Below, in pieces: positions 4,378 through 35,472 of a DNA stretch of 64,000 nt (position 1 is the first letter of the stretch; every line of letters begins with the position of its first letter). This DNA comes from Meiothermus sp. (GTDB lineage Bacteria; Deinococcota; Deinococci; Deinococcales; Thermaceae), in the NCBI RefSeq assembly GCF_026004075.1, contig NZ_BPIK01000001.1, positions 1,528,041 through 1,592,040 on the forward strand, read 5' to 3'. Made by a program: the position numbers and the translations under genes. The notes under the pieces are model-generated. The model saw only the letters and a list, made by a program, of their open reading frames with translations. It did no database searches and was not told the origin of the DNA.

Positions 4378-4403
4378 AACCCGAGGATTAGCATCCTCGG
4401 GTT
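4378..4403 (-). terminator. hairpin terminator downstream of the tRNA-Met locus
   Basis: A perfect 11-base stem (AACCCGAGGAT and its complement, 4-base loop) lies just outside the left attachment repeat. Before integration it would have followed the tRNA-Met gene directly, so it probably ended the tRNA transcript. Confidence 0.55.
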
Positions 4404-4418
4404 AATTGCGTTCTGGTG

Positions 4419-4463
4419 TGGTGGCTATGGGCGGACTTGAACCGCCGACACCACGATTATGAG
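4419..4463. repeat. left attachment repeat (att, 45 bp)
   Basis: This is an exact copy of the last 45 bases of the tRNA-Met gene at 13461-13505, ending within the anticodon loop. The following bases diverge at once. It is a displaced tRNA 3' end, not a functional tRNA. Confidence 0.93.
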
Positions 4464-5446: not shown

Positions 5447-6704
5447 GGTCGTGTCAAGATTTATGTGTAGCAGTCTGTGTAGAGGGGAAGTACCGCTCCT
5501 TCAGCATCTGTTCTAGCATCTCCTTTGCCTCGGCAAAGCCTCTGAGTGTACGCTCTGTCCATTTGCCCTCCTGCCTTTCGCTCTCCAGATACAGCACTTT
5601 GAACACCGCCTCCGTTGTAGGAAACTTGTGATCCCGTACCTTGGTACTGCGTCTTATCTCCCGGATAAACCGTTCCATCGGATTGGTGCTCCGAAGGTAG
5701 GGCCACAGCACCTTGGGATAGCCATAGAACCGCAGCAGCGCCGCGGAGTCCTCCCACCAACCGCTCACCAGCCGCGGGTACCTCGACCCCCAGGTTCGCC
5801 GCAGCCGCTCCAGGCCTTCCAGGGCTTCCTGTCGGCTTTCCGCCCGGTACACCCCGCGTAGATGCTCGGCCACCGCCCCCCGATCCCGTGCACGCACCTG
5901 TGCCAGGCTGGAGCGCACCATGTGCACCACGCAGCGCTGCCATTCGGCGCCGGGGTAGACCCTTTGGATGGCCGCCTCCATGCCGGGAAGGCCATCGGTC
6001 ACGAAGAGCAAGACCCGCCGTAGGCCCCTTTGCCACAAGCCCTTCAACACCTCCTCCCAGGCCAGAGCGCTCTCTGCGGGCAGGAGCCAGAAGCCCAGCA
6101 CCTGCCGCTCCCCGCTGGGGGTGATGCCCAGCGCCACATACACCGCCTCTTGCTGAACCCCCAGGTCGTCCCGCATGACCCTCAGAAACAGACCGTCCAG
6201 GTAGACCACGGCCAGTTCCTCCGGCAAAGGCCGCTGGCGGTACTGCTCCGCCGCCCGCAAGACCTGGTCGGTCAGGCTGCTAAGGGTCTCGTGGGTATAG
6301 CGGTGCCCCAGCAACAGGCTCAGCACCTCCGCCGCTTTGCGCTGCGTCACCCCGGCGGCATACAGGGCCACGGCCACCTCCCCCACGTCCACCAGGCGCC
6401 GGGCATAAGGTTCCAGGAAGCTGGGATAGTAGCACCCCTCGCGATCCCTGGGCATCTGGAGGTTCACTGAACCAAAGCGGGTCGAAAGCCGCCTGGGGTA
6501 GTAGCCGTTTTTGCGTCCTCCGTGTTCCCGCAAGAAGGCCTCCCGGTCGGCGTCCAGCAGAATCTGCAAGACCTCGGTGGCTGTTTCCCTTACCGCTTCG
6601 CGCAAAATCATCTGTAGGGTATCCTGATCCATGGGGTACCTCCTTGTTGATTGCGGTACCCCCTCTTTTTACACAAACCCCTACACATAATTCCTTACAC
6701 GACC
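5447..6704 (-). mobile_element. IS256-family insertion sequence (1258 bp)
   Basis: The 24-bp terminal inverted repeats begin GGTCGTGT at 5447 and, complementarily, end at 6704, with 21 of 24 positions matching. An 8-bp target duplication GAGCTTCT flanks it at 5439-5446 and 6705-6712. One transposase gene fills the element. The length, 8-bp duplication and transposase all fit the IS256 family. The intact termini, target duplication and full-length gene suggest a recent, possibly active insertion. Confidence 0.92.
5454..6632 (-). CDS. IS256-family (mutator-type) transposase
   Basis: 392 aa, full length for the family. The DDE residues are D146 (YLDGLFLRV), D213 (FVTDGLPGM) and E320 (STNPMERFIREIRR), with the family CVVHMVR motif between the second D and the E. 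It catalyses cut-and-copy transposition of its own element. The start ATG at 6632 lies about 70 bases inside the right inverted repeat. The gene is antisense to the excisionase gene it interrupts. Confidence 0.95.
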   Translation of the reverse strand: MDQDTLQMILREAVRETATEVLQILLDADREAFLREHGGRKNGYYPRRLSTRFGSVNLQMPRDREGCYYPSFLEPYARRLVDVGEVAVALYAAGVTQRKAAEVLSLLLGHRYTHETLSSLTDQVLRAAEQYRQRPLPEELAVVYLDGLFLRVMRDDLGVQQEAVYVALGITPSGERQVLGFWLLPAESALAWEEVLKGLWQRGLRRVLLFVTDGLPGMEAAIQRVYPGAEWQRCVVHMVRSSLAQVRARDRGAVAEHLRGVYRAESRQEALEGLERLRRTWGSRYPRLVSGWWEDSAALLRFYGYPKVLWPYLRSTNPMERFIREIRRSTKVRDHKFPTTEAVFKVLYLESERQEGKWTERTLRGFAEAKEMLEQMLKERYFPSTQTATHKS

Positions 6705-6879: not shown

Positions 6880-7335
6880 ATGCTTCCCGAAAACATTCTA
6901 CAAGACAAGCTGGCCTTCCTCTCGCACTTCCCCCACAACCAACGGAGCGCCGCCAACAACATCCTGCTCGAGGCTGTCCGCGCCGGCTGCAACGAGCCTA
7001 ACCAGGTGGTGGGCTACGCCCTCGAAACGGCGTGCCGCCGTTGCCACCTCGAGGCCGCGCAAACCCTGCGGTTGCTCTCTGAACTGGACTTCGAGGCCCT
7101 GTTAGCCGGGGCTCGCTGGGCCTTGTGGTGGGAGAGTCTGTCCCCCGAGGAGAAGCGCCGTTTTCGGGAGGGGCGGGCTGAGGAAGCCATAGAGCGCTGG
7201 ATGGAGCAAAACCCACCCACAGACAGGCAACTCGCCTATTTGAACCGCCTGGGCTACCGTGGCCCGACACCCGCTAATCGGCTCGAGGCCTCCCGGCTGA
7301 TTGACGAGCTTGTGAAGGGGGTGCGCCATGCCTAG
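6880..7335 (+). CDS. hypothetical element protein with TxxQLxYLxxLG motif
   Basis: 151 aa from ATG 6880, preceded by TAGGAGGG. The first part is helical, with two cysteine/histidine-containing segments (VRAGC, CRRCHLEA). The C-terminus has PTDRQLAYLNRLGY followed by EASRLIDELV, a short helical pair often found at the ends of phage and plasmid replication or recombination proteins. I cannot name a function. Its stop overlaps the primase start (ATG 7328), so the two are translationally coupled and probably act in replication together. Confidence 0.7.
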   Translation: MLPENILQDKLAFLSHFPHNQRSAANNILLEAVRAGCNEPNQVVGYALETACRRCHLEAAQTLRLLSELDFEALLAGARWALWWESLSPEEKRRFREGRAEEAIERWMEQNPPTDRQLAYLNRLGYRGPTPANRLEASRLIDELVKGVRHA

Positions 7336-8266
7336 CCCCCTACAAGCCGCTAGCATCCCTCCCACTTTGCGCCCGCTGAAGCAGTGGGTGCTCTGGCGCT
7401 ACAAGGTGCGGAATGGCAAGCGCACCAAGATCCCTTACCAGCCCTCCGGCGTGGAAGCCAAGAGCAACGACCCTGCCACATGGGTTGATTTTGAAAGCGC
7501 TGTGAAGGCCTTTGAGCGGGGCGGCTTCGATGGGGTGGGCTTCGTCTTCGCCAAGGATGGCGGCGTGGTGGGGGTTGATTTGGACTGGAAAGGCTGGGCC
7601 GGGGAGGGCGTGCCCCTCGAGGTTCAGACCATCGTAGATCGGCTGAACTCTTACACCGAGTGGAGCCCGAGCCGGAAGGGCTGCCACATCCTGCTAAGGG
7701 GCAAGCTGCCAGCCGGGATTGGCAAAAAAGAGCATCTAGCGCCCGGTGTACACCTCGAGGTGTACGACTCTGGGCGCTTCTTCACCGTGACCGGGGAGAG
7801 CTGGGACGGCTACCCCGCTGACCTCGAGGAGCGCCAAGCCGAACTCGAGGCCCTGTTAGCTGAACTCTTCCCCCCACGAGAGAGAAAGCGCCCGCTGCCC
7901 GAGCCCCCACCCCCACCACCGAGGGAGGTCAGGATAGGGGGCTCTCCCAGGAGGCTCACCGCGCTGCTAGGCGCTTACGCAGAGGCGGTGAGAACGGCTC
8001 AACAGGGTACCCGGCACAATACCTTGATTGGTTACGCCCGTGCCGCCGGTGGATTGGTGCCGCACGGATTAGACCCCCAGGAAGCGGAAGAGGCCCTGGT
8101 AGCCGCTGCCCTCGAGGCCGGACTACCCGAGGCCGAGGCCCGAGCAGCGGTGCGGTGGGGGCTCGAGGTGGGCCGCTCCCATCCCCTTTACCTGGAGGAC
8201 GCTCACGCTTACCAACCCTCTACCTACCGGGCCCGTGTCTACAAACGGCTGAGGAGGTGGGTATGA
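7328..8266 (+). CDS. primase-polymerase (AEP, NrS-1-type)
   Basis: 312 aa. The N-terminal half is an archaeo-eukaryotic primase-type domain: WVLWRYKVRNGKRTKIPYQP, GVGFVFAKDGGVVGVDLDW (catalytic D84 and D86), SYTEWSPSRKGCHILLRG (H120) and EVYDSGRFFTVTG (R150). A proline-rich linker (about 193-202) leads to a helical C-terminal domain with RHNTLIGYARAAGGLV, as in primase C-terminal domains. It would synthesise primers, and possibly extend DNA, at the element's origin. It overlaps the helicase gene by ATGA. Coding-strand richness in CTCGAG resembles the host. Confidence 0.85.
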   Translation: MPSPLQAASIPPTLRPLKQWVLWRYKVRNGKRTKIPYQPSGVEAKSNDPATWVDFESAVKAFERGGFDGVGFVFAKDGGVVGVDLDWKGWAGEGVPLEVQTIVDRLNSYTEWSPSRKGCHILLRGKLPAGIGKKEHLAPGVHLEVYDSGRFFTVTGESWDGYPADLEERQAELEALLAELFPPRERKRPLPEPPPPPPREVRIGGSPRRLTALLGAYAEAVRTAQQGTRHNTLIGYARAAGGLVPHGLDPQEAEEALVAAALEAGLPEAEARAAVRWGLEVGRSHPLYLEDAHAYQPSTYRARVYKRLRRWV

Positions 8267-9987
8267 CCTTCCCCGACCTGCTCAAGAAGGTGGAAGGGGC
8301 CCGAGCGGAGACCCTGCCCGCGCTGCTGCCCGAACTGTTCAAGGGCATGTACGAGGCCGCGCTGCTGGACACCGAGACGGAAGCCCTATTCCAGGCCGTC
8401 AAGAAGAAGACCGGGGTTAGTGTCGGTGCGTTGCGTAAAGACTGGGCCCGCTACCGCACCACGTGGGAGGAGAAGGCCCGGCAAGAGACCGCCCCTAGCC
8501 TCACCCCCGAGGCCTTTGAGGCCGCACAGGAGCTCTCGAAAGACCCCGCGCTACTCCACAAAGCGATTGAGACCATAGGGGGGTTAGGGGTAGTGGGAGA
8601 GCAGGAAAACCGGGGCCTGCTTTATCTGGCCCTGCTATCCGCTAAGTCTCAGACTCCTATCTCGGTGCTGGTCAAAGGCCGGAGTTCGTCGGGCAAGTCT
8701 TTTCTCGTCTCAAACGCGCTGAAGCTAATCCCCCCCAGGGGTTACTACGAGCTCTCATCCATGAGCAGCAAGGCCCTGGTGTACACCGACCTCGACTTTT
8801 CCCACCGCCACCTGGTGTTGTACGAGGAAGACGGCTTGCAGTCTGAGGACGTGCTCTACTTGATCCGCAGCCTGCTGTCAGAAGGGCAAATCCGCTATCT
8901 CACCGTGGAGAAAAACGGTAGTGGGAAACTCGTAGCCCGAGAAATAACCCGACCAGGCCCTACAGGACTCATCACAACGATGACCAAAGGGCTGACGAAA
9001 GAGGACAACGAGACCCGCACCTTCTCCCTCTACATGGACGACAGCAAAGAGCACACCCTTCGGGTGGTGGCCGCCCTAGCCGAGCGGGAAGCCCTGGGTA
9101 CCCGCTCCGAGGTAGACCTACGCCCCTGGCACGCGCTCTACGAGGCCCTGCCCCAAGCCGAGGTGATAGTGCCCTTTGCCCCCCACATCACCCGGCTGCT
9201 TGAGTCCAAAGACCTGCCTGAGGACTTGACCCGGCTCCGTAGGGATTTTGTACGCTACCTGACGCTGGTAAAAGTGATAACCCGGCTACACCACGCCCGG
9301 AGGGAGACCCAGGGGGATTGCCTAGTGGCTACCCTCGAGGACTACGCCCTGGCCTACCACCTGGCTGCTCGCCCGATGGCCCGGAGTGTGCACACCATCA
9401 GCCCCCAGGCCCTGGCGTTGGCTCGAGCCGTGGGCGAGGTGCACGCTCTGAAGGTGGAAAAGGCGCAAGAGAAAGGCGGTTCTGAGGAGTCGGTGGTGGT
9501 TTACGCCAAAGAACTGGCTAAGCACCTACGCTGGGCGAAACGGACGGTGCACAAGTGGCTAGACCAGGCCGAGGCGGCTGAGCTAATAGACATAAACAAG
9601 GACGGTAACCGGCTAGCCATCCGACCCCTGGAAGGGGCCCGCCTGGAAGAAGAATCCTTCCGGCTTCTTCCCGAGCCTGAAAAGCTGGCCCAGGAGTTAG
9701 GAGAGGGGGGTAGCTACATCCACCCCATCACCGGAAAAAGCTGCGTGCTCTATCCTTCCGAAACAGCGTGCACGTTTTCCCCAAAAACCCCAACAAATAA
9801 CGTCCAGAACGATGGAAACCATCGTGCACGCTATGTGCACGAACGTGCACGGGAGGAGGAGAAAAGCCCTCTGGAAGAGGAAAAAACCCGTGCACAAGGG
9901 GAAGCGCCTTCTTTATCGCAAAAAACCGAGGAGCGCGCACGCACCGTGCACCCCCCCCGTGCACGCTCGGGGTGGAGGGAGGTATAG
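8263..9987 (+). CDS. AAA+ replication helicase/ATPase
   Basis: 574 aa from ATG 8263 (ATGA overlap with the primase gene). Walker A is GRSSSGKS at 139-146. An acidic Walker B-like LVLYEED is at about 184-190, a sensor-like LITTMTKG follows and NETRTF offers a candidate arginine finger. The C-terminal third holds a winged-helix-like WAKRTVHKWLDQAEAAELI. This matches the helicase partner of phage and plasmid AEP primases. The last 75 or so residues are low-complexity and Arg/His-rich because the coding sequence runs through the GTGCAC repeat cluster. Confidence 0.8.
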   Translation: MTFPDLLKKVEGARAETLPALLPELFKGMYEAALLDTETEALFQAVKKKTGVSVGALRKDWARYRTTWEEKARQETAPSLTPEAFEAAQELSKDPALLHKAIETIGGLGVVGEQENRGLLYLALLSAKSQTPISVLVKGRSSSGKSFLVSNALKLIPPRGYYELSSMSSKALVYTDLDFSHRHLVLYEEDGLQSEDVLYLIRSLLSEGQIRYLTVEKNGSGKLVAREITRPGPTGLITTMTKGLTKEDNETRTFSLYMDDSKEHTLRVVAALAEREALGTRSEVDLRPWHALYEALPQAEVIVPFAPHITRLLESKDLPEDLTRLRRDFVRYLTLVKVITRLHHARRETQGDCLVATLEDYALAYHLAARPMARSVHTISPQALALARAVGEVHALKVEKAQEKGGSEESVVVYAKELAKHLRWAKRTVHKWLDQAEAAELIDINKDGNRLAIRPLEGARLEEESFRLLPEPEKLAQELGEGGSYIHPITGKSCVLYPSETACTFSPKTPTNNVQNDGNHRARYVHERAREEEKSPLEEEKTRAQGEAPSLSQKTEERARTVHPPRARSGWREV

Positions 9988-10173
9988 CGTGCCCACCCCC
10001 CGTACACAAAACACCGCGAATGCCGTCCTGGACGTAAAGAGGAATGTGCACGCTGTTTGCCCCGTCCTGGACGGTGTTTCTCCTGGGGGTGTGCACATCC
10101 GTGCACATGGCGTGCACGATGGTTTTTACTGTCCTGGACGGCATTACCACCCGATTTTGAGTGAATCGTGCAC
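9768..10173. repeat. iteron-like cluster, candidate replication origin of the element
   Basis: GTGCAC occurs 12 times in 406 bases (9768, 9824, 9835, 9845, 9890, 9946, 9959, 10046, 10091, 10101, 10112, 10168), mostly as CGTGCACG, with several 10-13 base spacings. GTCCTGGAC, itself near-palindromic, occurs at 10025, 10064 and 10131, with a variant GTCCAGAAC at 9802. A 30-base inverted pair (9801-9830 and 10111-10140) bounds most of the cluster. The cluster starts in the 3' end of the helicase gene and fills the noncoding gap 9988-10212. Position next to primase and helicase suggests an origin. Confidence 0.6.
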
Positions 10174-10212
10174 GCACTTTGGGGAAGAAAGAGGCACGCA
10201 AAGGAGGAGCCC

Positions 10213-10749
10213 ATGACCCGACTGGATCTCCTGGCCGCCCTGCGGGCCCTTGAGGCCCTGCCCCTGGCCCGGGAGGGGGGGAGGCTCCTCCTCCCCGAGG
10301 AGACCCCGGAAGAGGTTTTCCAGGCCATCCGCCCCCACAAGGCCCGCCTCCTCCGGGCCCTGGAGGACGGGGAGGAGGTGCCCGCCCGCGCCCTCCTGGA
10401 AGACCCCCGCCGCCGGGCCCTCCTCCTTTTGCCCGAAGAGGGGGAAGAGAAGGGTGTGAGCCTTACCCGCGACCCCGACCCCTCAGGCTGCCCTACCCAC
10501 TGGCAGAGGGTGCCCGAACTACCCCCTCGAGGCTCGAGGGTGGCTATGGTAGACGAGGCGGGGTTTGGGAGGCTATACCGCTTCAAGGTCAAAGGGGTGT
10601 GGTACTTGCTGAAGTTTCTACCCCCCTTTGACGGTAGGGTGTCCCTGACCGACCAGCAAGGAAAAGTACGGGTGCTGGCTTCCCTGGATGAGGCCGCTGC
10701 CTTCCTGGCCCTGGTGACAGAGGACGAGGAGGATGTGTTGGTGATATGA
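10213..10749 (+). CDS. hypothetical protein with TubC-like N-terminal domain
   Basis: 178 aa from ATG 10213, after a strong AAGGAGGAG. Residues 1-55 (LDLLAALRALEALPLAREGG then LLLPEETPEEVFQAIRPHKA) follow the pattern of the TubC-type N-terminal docking domain, a small helical/hairpin module common in mobile-element proteins. The C-terminal half, with a YRFKVKGVWYLLKFLPPFDG segment, is unfamiliar. The first 240 bases are extremely GC-rich with GGCC-rich codons and no CTCGAG, unlike the second half, suggesting a mosaic gene. The function is unknown. Confidence 0.65.
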   Translation: MTRLDLLAALRALEALPLAREGGRLLLPEETPEEVFQAIRPHKARLLRALEDGEEVPARALLEDPRRRALLLLPEEGEEKGVSLTRDPDPSGCPTHWQRVPELPPRGSRVAMVDEAGFGRLYRFKVKGVWYLLKFLPPFDGRVSLTDQQGKVRVLASLDEAAAFLALVTEDEEDVLVI

Positions 10750-11309
10750 GCCGCTACCCCCACCTACCCGCTGCCCTGCTGGGGCTGCTCGAGGCTGGCC
10801 CCTGGGAAGGAACCCCCACCGAGCTTTACATCGCCCTCGAGCCCTACCGGGTAGAGCCCTGGCCCGCTAACCCCGTGAGCCTGAGTCTGTGGCTCAAACA
10901 CCACGCTGAGGCGCACGGTATCCAGGTGGAAGCCCATCACACCGGCGAGCGCCGGGTGTTGTGTCTGGCACGGGTGGCTAACGGGTTGAAGGGTGCAAGC
11001 GAACCGGAACATAGCGGCACGATTCCGCCGCATACCGCCGCGTTTTGGAGCTTCCCCACCTGGGGGGCTTTACGTGAAGGCCTTCCGGAGGTGTTTGACT
11101 CCCACCCCTCTGAAATGACCTTTACCCTCGCTTACCGTTACCCGAACTGGCAAAGCGCGAGGGTGGTCAAGCGCTTCTTTCTCGAATCTGAAGCAGCGGA
11201 GGATTCCTTACGCTACCCCCAAGTGTGTGAGGTGCGTATCTACGCCGGTGAGGTGGATATAGCCACCGTGTGGCCTATGGAGAATAGGATTGAGTATGCC
11301 GAGCTTTGA
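10746..11309 (+). CDS. hypothetical protein with primase-associated winged-helix-like N-terminus
   Basis: 187 aa, ATGA overlap with the preceding gene. The N-terminal part (WEGTPTELYIALEPYRVEPWPANPVSL then LWLKHHAEAHGIQVEAHHTGERR) has the layout of the winged-helix module often found at the C-terminus of phage primases, here as a separate protein. The remaining 110 residues, including FTLAYRYPNWQSARVVKRFF, are unrecognised. Its position suggests an accessory replication role, which is inference. Confidence 0.6.
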   Translation: MSRYPHLPAALLGLLEAGPWEGTPTELYIALEPYRVEPWPANPVSLSLWLKHHAEAHGIQVEAHHTGERRVLCLARVANGLKGASEPEHSGTIPPHTAAFWSFPTWGALREGLPEVFDSHPSEMTFTLAYRYPNWQSARVVKRFFLESEAAEDSLRYPQVCEVRIYAGEVDIATVWPMENRIEYAEL

Positions 11310-11679
11310 CTACGAACGCGCCGCCACCATCCTGGCCGAGGCCGCATTCTCGGACGACCAGAGTGTGTGTCAGCGTCACGGAATCACGGATAGGACGCTG
11401 CGCCGCTATCGTGCGCGGCTGCTGTCCGACCCGCGTCTGTCCGCTTTCGTCCAGGAGCGGCAAGCGCGGCTTGCTGAGCAGTGGGCACACGAGCTGGCAC
11501 CCGCTATCGGTGCGGCTGTTCGGTTTCTCCGGCAAGCCGCACAAAGCGCTGACCCCACCAACCCCGCCGCAATCCGCGCTGTGGCCGAGGCCCTGAAAGC
11601 GTTGGCCGAGATAGACATGACCCGCGATATGCTTCGCTCTCGAGTTGGAGGTGACACGTGGGACTTTGGGAAAAACTAA
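11296..11679 (+). CDS. HTH protein resembling a phage terminase small subunit
   Basis: 127 aa from ATG 11296 (TTG at 11290 is possible). The N-terminal helix-turn-helix SVCQRHGITDRTLRRYRARL is followed by helical segments rich in A, R and E (LAEQWAHELAPAIGAAVRFL, then AIRAVAEALKALAEIDM), the layout of small-terminase or phage HTH proteins. No large terminase is present. If TerS is correct it would let the element redirect a helper phage's packaging, as in PICI satellites. A generic HTH regulator is the alternative. Confidence 0.5.
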   Translation: MPSFDYERAATILAEAAFSDDQSVCQRHGITDRTLRRYRARLLSDPRLSAFVQERQARLAEQWAHELAPAIGAAVRFLRQAAQSADPTNPAAIRAVAEALKALAEIDMTRDMLRSRVGGDTWDFGKN

Positions 11680-12028: not shown

Positions 12029-12241
12029 ATGCCAAGAGGCCAACACCTGGATCGGGCTCGGCTACCCAAAGAAGAGCGCTTGCGGCTTCTCAACCGGGAG
12101 CCGCTTGAGCCGGATGAGGTATCGGTATCCATCCGAATACGCATCAGAAAAGACCAGTTACCCGCCGTGCTGGGGCTGAGCGCAAAAGAGCGCGGGGTGC
12201 TGCTGGCTAAGGGGGTGCAGGATGCCAAGACTGACGAATAA
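12029..12241 (+). CDS. small DNA-binding-like protein upstream of integrase
   Basis: 70 aa, leaderless start. The middle reads VSVSIRIRIRKDQLPAVLGL followed by SAKERGVLLAKGV: a basic beta strand and two helices, the general shape of ribbon-helix-helix or similar compact regulators, though the family is not certain. It overlaps the integrase start by 20 bases, so the two are coupled. A role as autoregulator of integrase expression is inferred from the inverted repeat in its own promoter. Confidence 0.55.
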   Translation: MPRGQHLDRARLPKEERLRLLNREPLEPDEVSVSIRIRIRKDQLPAVLGLSAKERGVLLAKGVQDAKTDE

Positions 12242-13376
12242 ACCACGTAGACGCAAAGATGGACGCTTCGAGGTGCGCCTGACCATCCAGGAAGGGGGTA
12301 AGTCGGTAAGGGTCTCCGTGTTTGGCAAGACTGCTGCTGAAGCTGAGCGCAAAGCCCGCGACCTGAAGACCAAGGCCGAGCGGGGCCTGTACACCCGCGA
12401 TAAGACCACCGTGGCGGGGTATGCCCTGGGTTGGCTTGAGCGCAAGCGCAAAGAGGTAAGACCCCGCACGGCTGAACTGTACCGGCTCGAGCTAGGCTAC
12501 GCCCTGCCCTCAATCCAAGACCCCGAGGCCAAAGACCCGCTGGGCTCCAAACCTTTACAGGACGTGAAGCCTGCCCACATCCGCGAGGTGTTGGGTGAAC
12601 TCGCAGAGCGCTATTCTATCCGCACCGTCAAGATGGTGCGGCAACGCCTGTGGCAGGTGTTCCGGGATGCTTTGGATATGGAGCTCGTCTTTCGTAACCC
12701 GGTGGAGCCGGTGCGGATCAAGACCCCTAGGGGTCAGAGCCAGAAGGCCGGTAGAGCCCTTGAGGTGCACGAGATAGCCGCCTTGCTGGCCGCACTGGAT
12801 AGCCACAAAGACCCCCGTACTGCTATGGCCCTTCGGCTGATGCTGGCCTGTGGGTTGCGTAGGGGTGAGGCGCTGGGGTTGCAGTGGCAGGACGTAGACC
12901 TCGAGGCCGGGGTGCTCACCATCCGCCGGGCCTGGACAGATGACGGTAAGGCCGGGGTGGTGACCCTACCCAAGACCGGGACTAGCCACCGCACCCTTCC
13001 CATCCCGCACAGCACCCTCGAGCGGTTGAAGCATTACTCCATCTGGTACGCCGGGCTGTTTGGCAACCCCAACCCCGAGGGCTGGCTGTTCCCAGGTAAC
13101 GACACCACCAAACCGCTCAACCCACACGCGCCGAACTGGGCCTTGAAGCGCATTACCGAGCGGCTGGGGATACCGCCGGTGCGGGTGCATGACCTGCGCC
13201 ATAGCTACGGTAGCCACATGCTGGCAAACGGTGCACCGCTGGAGCTTGTGGCTGAGCGCATGGGACACGCCAACCCCAACATTACGCTAGGGGTTTACCG
13301 GCATGTGTTGGAGCAAGAGCGCAAGGGCTGGGTATTCGACCCTGAAGACCTGCTGAAGCCCAGGGCCAAGGCATAG
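12222..13376 (+). CDS. tyrosine recombinase / element integrase
   Basis: 384 aa. An N-terminal arm-binding region (1-55, basic) leads to a SAM-like core-binding domain (TVAGYALGWLERKRKEVRP onward) and a C-terminal catalytic domain. Catalytic residues are R213 (ACGLRRGE), K251 (LPKTGTSHR), H323 and R326 (HDLRH), H349 (MGHANP) and nucleophile Y359 (GVYRHV). It catalyses recombination between the 45-bp att sites in tRNA-Met. It lies 85 bases from the intact tRNA end, the usual arrangement. Candidate arm sites follow its stop codon. Confidence 0.95.
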   Translation: MPRLTNKPRRRKDGRFEVRLTIQEGGKSVRVSVFGKTAAEAERKARDLKTKAERGLYTRDKTTVAGYALGWLERKRKEVRPRTAELYRLELGYALPSIQDPEAKDPLGSKPLQDVKPAHIREVLGELAERYSIRTVKMVRQRLWQVFRDALDMELVFRNPVEPVRIKTPRGQSQKAGRALEVHEIAALLAALDSHKDPRTAMALRLMLACGLRRGEALGLQWQDVDLEAGVLTIRRAWTDDGKAGVVTLPKTGTSHRTLPIPHSTLERLKHYSIWYAGLFGNPNPEGWLFPGNDTTKPLNPHAPNWALKRITERLGIPPVRVHDLRHSYGSHMLANGAPLELVAERMGHANPNITLGVYRHVLEQERKGWVFDPEDLLKPRAKA

Positions 13377-13419: not shown

Positions 13420-13449
13420 AAACCGGGGTTCAGACGACCCCGGTTTTTT
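13420..13449 (+). terminator. integrase terminator
   Basis: The hairpin AAACCGGGGT/ACCCCGGTTT is followed by a T-run (13443-13449), a textbook intrinsic terminator between the integrase and the tRNA genes. Confidence 0.85.
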
Positions 13450-13460
13450 GCGTCCTGGAC

Positions 13461-13505
13461 TGGTGGCTATGGGCGGACTTGAACCGCCGACACCACGATT
13501 ATGAG
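13461..13505. repeat. right attachment repeat (att, 45 bp), inside tRNA-Met
   Basis: Exact match to 4419-4463. Integration replaced the tRNA 3' end with an identical element-borne copy, so the tRNA stays functional. Confidence 0.93.
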
Positions 13506-13537
13506 TCGTGTGCTCTAACCAGCTGAGCTACATAGCC
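13461..13537 (-). tRNA. tRNA-Met (CAT anticodon), integration target
   Basis: 77 nt with encoded CCA. Acceptor GGCTATG pairs with CATAGCC, the D-arm is GCTC/GAGC, the anticodon stem CACGA/TCGTG has loop CTCATAA, and the T-arm contains GGTTCAAGTCC. The acceptor sequence favours elongator tRNA-Met, but CAT anticodons also belong to tRNA-Ile2 (lysidine-modified), whose anticodon stem is similar; sequence alone does not fully separate them. Confidence 0.9.
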
Positions 13538-35130: not shown

Positions 35131-35284
35131 GTGGATCTTGGGATAAAGCGTTTACCACGAATACCCAGTGCAGTGCTTTTTGCTGTGCTGGGTAAATTAA
35201 CGTCAGCTCGAAGTTATCCAACAAGCTGAAAAAGCTAAGCCGAATGTTGAAAACCCGTCAATCAGCCGGGCGGTATCGTAAAGT

Positions 35285-35406
35285 CCACCCCTACCGCGTA
35301 GGGGTGGGTAGGGCGGGGTTTGTTCCGCACCAGTCCACGCAATCACAAGATTGCATGAACGACCTCGGAACCCACCCCTCCAACCTCCCTTACAGCGTAG
35401 GGGAGG
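35285..35406. repeat. palindromic intergenic repeats
   Basis: Between the RCC1 gene and IS5 copy B (35131-35472) no gene is supported. A perfect CCACCCCTAC/GTAGGGGTGG hairpin (35285-35307) and a similar CCTCCC/GGGAGG hairpin (about 35384-35406) form a pair of related palindromes. Another imperfect hairpin lies near 35167-35196. Confidence 0.45.
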
Positions 35407-35472
35407 CTTTAGCGTGAGTCTGCCGTGCCACACAGGTTTATTCTGCTTTTCTATCTCCCAACTGACGTTTTA

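Follow-up and report, generated by a model that had tools for sequence, protein, structure and literature searches.

P4 is a satellite phage of enterobacteria whose alpha gene is a primase-helicase gene, and PICI are elements of SaPI type whose traits are phage induction and packaging. In the P4 record (NC_001609) the annotation 'cis required region for replication' marks the crr, which is situated just past the 3' end of alpha; each 120-bp copy holds five type 1 repeats at offsets 0, 9, 52, 70 and 84. The origins of Gram-negative PICI lie 3' of rep, with their two iteron sets on either side of an AT-rich region, and the authors call this arrangement unlike that of any other known bacterial replicon (PMC6092414, in the portion of the text available). 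ICETh2-type elements are integrated at tRNA genes, measure about 8-12 kb and carry genes for a tyrosine integrase, Ppol and a helicase; UV raises the amount of the circular form of ICETh2 in a manner that depends on the helicase gene and not on ppol, and in the wild type the excised form replicated little (PMC7693054, in the available sections). The word 'iteron' is absent from the main text of that paper, and its available sections describe no origin for ICETh2. A mirrored array is undescribed in the literature that we searched on ICETh1/ICETh2, Meiothermus iterons and P4 crr, most subscription papers and the older P4/SaPI work lying outside that search, and literature on inverted iterons with looping yielded a plant virus only and no description of a mirrored array.

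The window, a 64,000-nucleotide stretch of Meiothermus sp. DNA, contains an integrated element of ~9.1 kb bounded by an integrase, a tRNA-Met and a 64-bp direct repeat. The left attachment repeat (4400-4463) is identical at 59/64 positions to the right one (13442-13505), which overlaps the 3' end of the tRNA-Met (13461-13537), and the tyrosine integrase gene (12222-13376, + strand; Pfam Phage_integrase, E 3.2e-30) lies beside the tRNA; the far end of the element carries a repeat of the tRNA 3' end, as in the ICETh2-type arrangement. As in the ICETh2 type, a primase-polymerase gene is followed by a helicase gene: the primase-polymerase-like gene (7328-8266, + strand) matched PHROG primase families (best E 7.6e-47) and no Pfam family at 0.1, and the Rep gene (8242-9987, + strand) is called helicase-like from a weak AAA_16 match under the cut-off (E 0.0013) together with plasmid relatives. 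The start of Rep at 8242 is our choice, the open reading frame opening at 8155. Going by the available parts of the published descriptions (PMC7693054, PMC9751324), the plan of the window element is that of the ICETh2-type elements of Thermus. Two cargo genes (10213-10749 and 10746-11309, both + strand) lie downstream of Rep.

Over its middle part Rep is 26-32% identical to plasmid proteins of CHC2/TOPRIM primase type among the matches listed. Sequence searches with Rep gave no match in the PDB or in phage records, nor, with Rep alone, in viral contigs, where an alignment query found one 27% relative. AlphaFold2 models of Rep with 3 sequences (mean pLDDT 42.9) and of its C-terminal part with 6 sequences (pLDDT 45.0) were of too low a quality to reveal a DNA-binding domain. 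The element also contains an IS of Mutator/IS256 type (5447-6704) with imperfect inverted ends and a transposase gene on the minus strand (5454-6632), and a small HTH protein (11290-11679) whose make-up recalls a phage small terminase, for which Pfam and PHROG gave only weak transposase-type matches. The same genome carries at least five elements of this type, namely two copies of the window element, L040, L041 and L042, and parts of a further one (L006).

Anatomy of the mirrored array

A first-pass annotation of the window had described two inverted 30-base modules bounding an iteron cluster, each joining one GTGCAC unit through a linker to one GTCCTGGAC-type unit. The pair was confirmed: the reverse complement of 9801-9830 (+ strand) matches 10111-10140 (- strand) at 25/30 positions, and each copy holds one GTGCAC, a CGATGG-type linker and one GTCC(A/T)G(G/A)AC unit. 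It forms part of a longer imperfect inverted repeat, whose left arm (9748-9896, + strand) lies within the 3' end of the Rep gene and whose right arm (10045-10193, - strand) lies 3' of the Rep stop codon; the best inverted 30-base slice, 9816-9845 against 10096-10125, matches at 27/30. The arms align in two segments, 9796-9896/10045-10145 with 71% identity and 9748-9786/10155-10193 with 74% identity, and both have their symmetry axis at 9970.5 (coordinate sum 19941). About this axis five GTGCAC iterons form exact mirror pairs, 9768-9773 with 10168-10173, 9824-9829 with 10112-10117, 9835-9840 with 10101-10106, 9845-9850 with 10091-10096 and 9890-9895 with 10046-10051, and two central GTGCAC at 9946 and 9959 (9946-9964) have no exact GTGCAC partner. 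The modules do not bound the cluster, since the mirrored pair at 9768/10168 lies outside them, and a natural unit of 30 bases is not supported; the natural units are iterons of ~8 bp, which in the window read CGTGCACG, and an 11-bp box.

When 9701-10250 was shuffled 300 times with its dinucleotides preserved, the best inverted 30-mer scored 18.5 on average and 21 at most. When the GTGCAC and GTCC units were held fixed and the rest was shuffled, a score of 25 was reached in 7/300 and of 27 in 1/300, so much of the 30-base score is due to the sites themselves. Five exact mirrored GTGCAC pairs were obtained in 0 of 200,000 random placements, and the strong signal lies more in where the sites stand than in the 30-base match.

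Joint change of the repeat word and recurrence of the layout

Searching 111 genomes of the class with Rep gave any match in 8 and a strong match in 6, the window's own genome included. Seven loci were compared: the window copy, a second copy elsewhere in the same genome (97% identity over the aligned part, Rep in two frames), M. hypogaeus, G038, and three taken as Thermus (G046, G064 and G052). Inverted arms, placed at the Rep 3' end and downstream of it, were present in 7/7 of these copies, with a distance between the arms of 148 nt in the window and of about 370-1290 nt in the five other species; the two cargo genes of the window lie outside its arms, and their homologues in G038 lie between them. 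GTGCAC is the hexamer of the Meiothermus copies, G046 and G064 have GCGCAC/GTGCGC, and G052 has TTGCAC/GTGCAA with some GTGCAC. Mirroring is exact for 5/5 pairs in the window and in G038 and for 4/5 in M. hypogaeus, the fifth being off by 1; summed from site positions, G046 and G064 have six mirrored pairs, 5 exact and the sixth off by 1, and G052 has 7/7 exact. The repeat word thus differs between copies (GTGCAC, GCGCAC, TTGCAC) and does so in both arms together, of which one alone lies in the gene, as a co-evolving binding protein would impose. The first-pass annotation had seen the modules as composite, oriented and facing each other, a view that would have suffered had relatives kept the hexamers and lost the pair; the opposite was observed, the pair being kept while the hexamer changes in both arms, and that view is supported.

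Searches with three cargo proteins found 74 loci, of which 55 were screened; of the other 19, 17 lie within elements already among the 55, and L090 and L109 are the second copy in the window's own genome, included in the seven loci above. An inverted repeat at E<=1e-10 was present in 39/55 loci against 1/142 control chunks of 3.3 kb, and at E<=1e-12 in 34/55 against 0/142, the 34 including one repeat counted twice (L053, L099) and L061, whose repeat has no clear iteron word; in 16/55 loci no inverted repeat was found at 1e-8. The sole control chunk below 1e-10 holds an inverted repeat of the window (35279-35411) whose arms are of CCACCCCTAC/GTAGGGGTGG type (E about 1e-11). Counting k-mers in 36/55 loci, among which L107 gave none, and leaving out L069, L061 and L070, we mapped iterons in 32 loci with words hand-picked from the commonest k-mers. 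The words vary across these loci (e.g. AAATGTCA, CCGGGAACA, AGTGGGAACA, CACTGACG, CTGCTAAA, CTCCAAAAC, CATCAAAT), and at least three iteron pairs mirrored within 2 bp were found in 31/32; for 26 of the 31, none of 1000 null placements was as good. L058 has 0 mirrored pairs on the alignment axis because its alignment is gapped, its sites mirroring on an axis of their own, and in L056, L057 and L060 the mirroring is mainly in the outer sites.

The replication genes beside the arrays fall into several BLASTP groups, within which the words are the same or related, and Pfam matches in their representatives were Prim-Pol with sub-threshold AAA_16, DUF927, DUF3987 and AAA_25; the layout is found with several unrelated helicases. 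Box and AT counts were made on 22 compact arrays, for which L112 and L113 were also left out. Compact arrays lie wholly within the open frame of the replication gene in 13/22 cases and after its stop codon in 9/22, the array of L111 overlapping the end of the replication gene by a few bases. In a split variant, L041 (3741-5040), the arms lie in the 3' ends of a primase-like gene and of an AAA_25 helicase gene and so flank the helicase gene, and L112 (297-992), which exceeds the other arrays in size, is a palindrome of ~700 bp holding 25 ACCGACA-type sites.

A constant box among changing iterons

The GTCCTGGAC-type unit proved to be an 11-bp box, CGTCCAGGACG, that recurs with different iterons. 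In the window its left copy (CGTCCAGAACG, 9801-9811) mirrors the right one (TGTCCTGGACG, 10130-10140), and two extra exact copies (10024-10034 and 10063-10073) are not mirrored. An exact box was found in 10/22 compact arrays against 1/1487 control 300-mers, and a box with at most 1 mismatch in 21/22 against 34/1487. A mirrored box pair is present in 14/22 compact arrays at <=1 mismatch and in 19/22 at <=2, partly because the arms are inverted. At <=2 mismatches the box is found in 31/32 mapped loci, but also in 325/1320 control stretches, and the control word CCTGCAGGACG, one letter off a common box variant, reaches 18/22 at that tolerance; we therefore lean on the counts at <=1 mismatch only. 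The box of the left arm reads in frame as Val-Gln-Asp in the tails of several Reps (e.g. 9801-9811 in the window and near 7669 in L024).

The exact box occurs at 11 places in the window's own genome, 4 of them in the two copies of the window element. The host origin was rejected as the home of the box: the other 7 places have no inverted repeat at E<=1e-6, and none of them lies near dnaA (C2:455540). A DnaA box at <=1 mismatch was found in 0/22 compact arrays. In the 22 compact loci the AT content peaks at 0.54 at 100-120 bp from the axis and is 0.38 at the centre, the arms of the window lying outside this profile.

A candidate origin and its relation to P4, PICI and ICETh2

We consider that the mirrored array is probably a Rep-specific iteron origin of replication of a tRNA-integrated ICETh2-type element, a reading drawn from comparison of sequences. 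It is favoured because all seven Rep copies keep the pair, the words change jointly and 34/55 loci carry such repeats, because compact arrays lie in or directly after the replication gene with words that track the Rep family, and because the P4 crr and PICI origins sit 3' of a replication gene, crr sharing its repeat spacing with one of the Thermaceae families. The covariation of iterons with Rep argues for binding by the cognate Rep. The origin would be used after excision of the element: Rep, the helicase-like product of the gene directly upstream, would use a DNA-binding region at its C-terminus to bind the ~8-bp iterons and would assemble on the two facing arrays, so that one helicase may be loaded per arm and two forks may depart in opposite directions, with primers supplied by the neighbouring primase-polymerase or by the host. 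The constant palindrome CGTCCAGGACG, present in each arm, would be recognised by a factor that remains the same as Rep and iteron change.

Against an origin stand the lack of a DnaA box in 22/22 compact arrays, the 16 loci without a repeat at 1e-8, the position of the window's family outside the P4 layouts, and the little replication of wild-type ICETh2 together with the dispensability of Ppol, as given in the available sections of PMC7693054. The centre, which is not AT-rich in the compact loci, also counts against it, and would suit an array that serves as a Rep-binding control site, for autoregulation, copy control or pairing of two arrays, with strand opening elsewhere in the element. Arm spacing that ranges from 148 to about 1290 nt, as in sites acting by looping, and the location of half of the window array inside the Rep gene agree with such a role, but the P4 crr, which has the spacing of one of the Thermaceae families, is annotated as required for replication and PICI origins occupy the same place (PMC6092414, available portion), and we regard a control site as unlikely. 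Use of the array in a different transaction of the element, for instance transfer, packaging or partition, appears very improbable: the constant box does suggest a reader other than a Rep-specific domain, yet the iteron word tracks the adjoining replication gene, and no relaxase or partition family was matched among the element proteins scanned. We rejected chance clustering and, as scarcely credible, arms that are a recombination substrate or a leftover inverted duplication with no binding function, for although one arm encodes on the other strand a reading similar to the Rep end, and the right arm precedes the cargo genes in the window and follows their homologues in G038, the arms are only ~71% alike and yet keep their site positions, the word changes jointly in both, and elements with unrelated genes and words show this layout too.

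Read as an origin, the array resembles those of PICI in its place at or after the 3' end of the rep gene and in its two iteron sets, and differs in that PICI have an AT-rich region between the sets whereas the compact Thermaceae arrays are less AT-rich at the centre. With P4 it shares short repeats just past the 3' end of a replication gene, and in one family, family C, whose representative matches DUF927, the likeness extends to spacing: the offsets and orientation pattern of P4 crr, up to a global flip, fit 12/12 arms within 2 bp, against a chance expectation of 0.003 of the 44 arms tested. The offsets of P4 ori fit 4/44 arms within 2 bp (L116 left, L111 right and both of L048). The window's family fits neither the crr nor the ori layout, the best tolerance for two Thermus members being 15-16 bp. 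The two crr copies of P4 are direct whereas the Thermaceae copies are inverted, the crr spacer has no CGTCCAGGACG box, and matching the words by their GAACA ends flips the polarity. BLASTP of P4 alpha against two of the Reps gave no convincing similarity, and the present data are compatible with either common ancestry or common geometry.

These comparisons allow a broader and tentative proposal, to which we give rather less than even credence, of a portable origin grammar in which P4 and Thermaceae elements might share a fixed grid of spacing and orientation that places five or six iterons and that unrelated helicases use with freely exchangeable words. In Thermaceae two such grids would stand head to head about a constant palindrome recognised by a second factor common to the elements, and specificity would be swapped by changing Rep and word jointly, grid and box being kept. 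From the head-to-head arrangement and the constant box one would expect two helicases to be loaded symmetrically and a co-factor to take part, and the many natural pairs of word and Rep make Rep-origin specificity testable. For ICETh2-type elements, the array points to the likely replication origin, where the available sections of PMC7693054 describe none, and the match of its spacing in one family with P4 suggests selection on geometry rather than on sequence.
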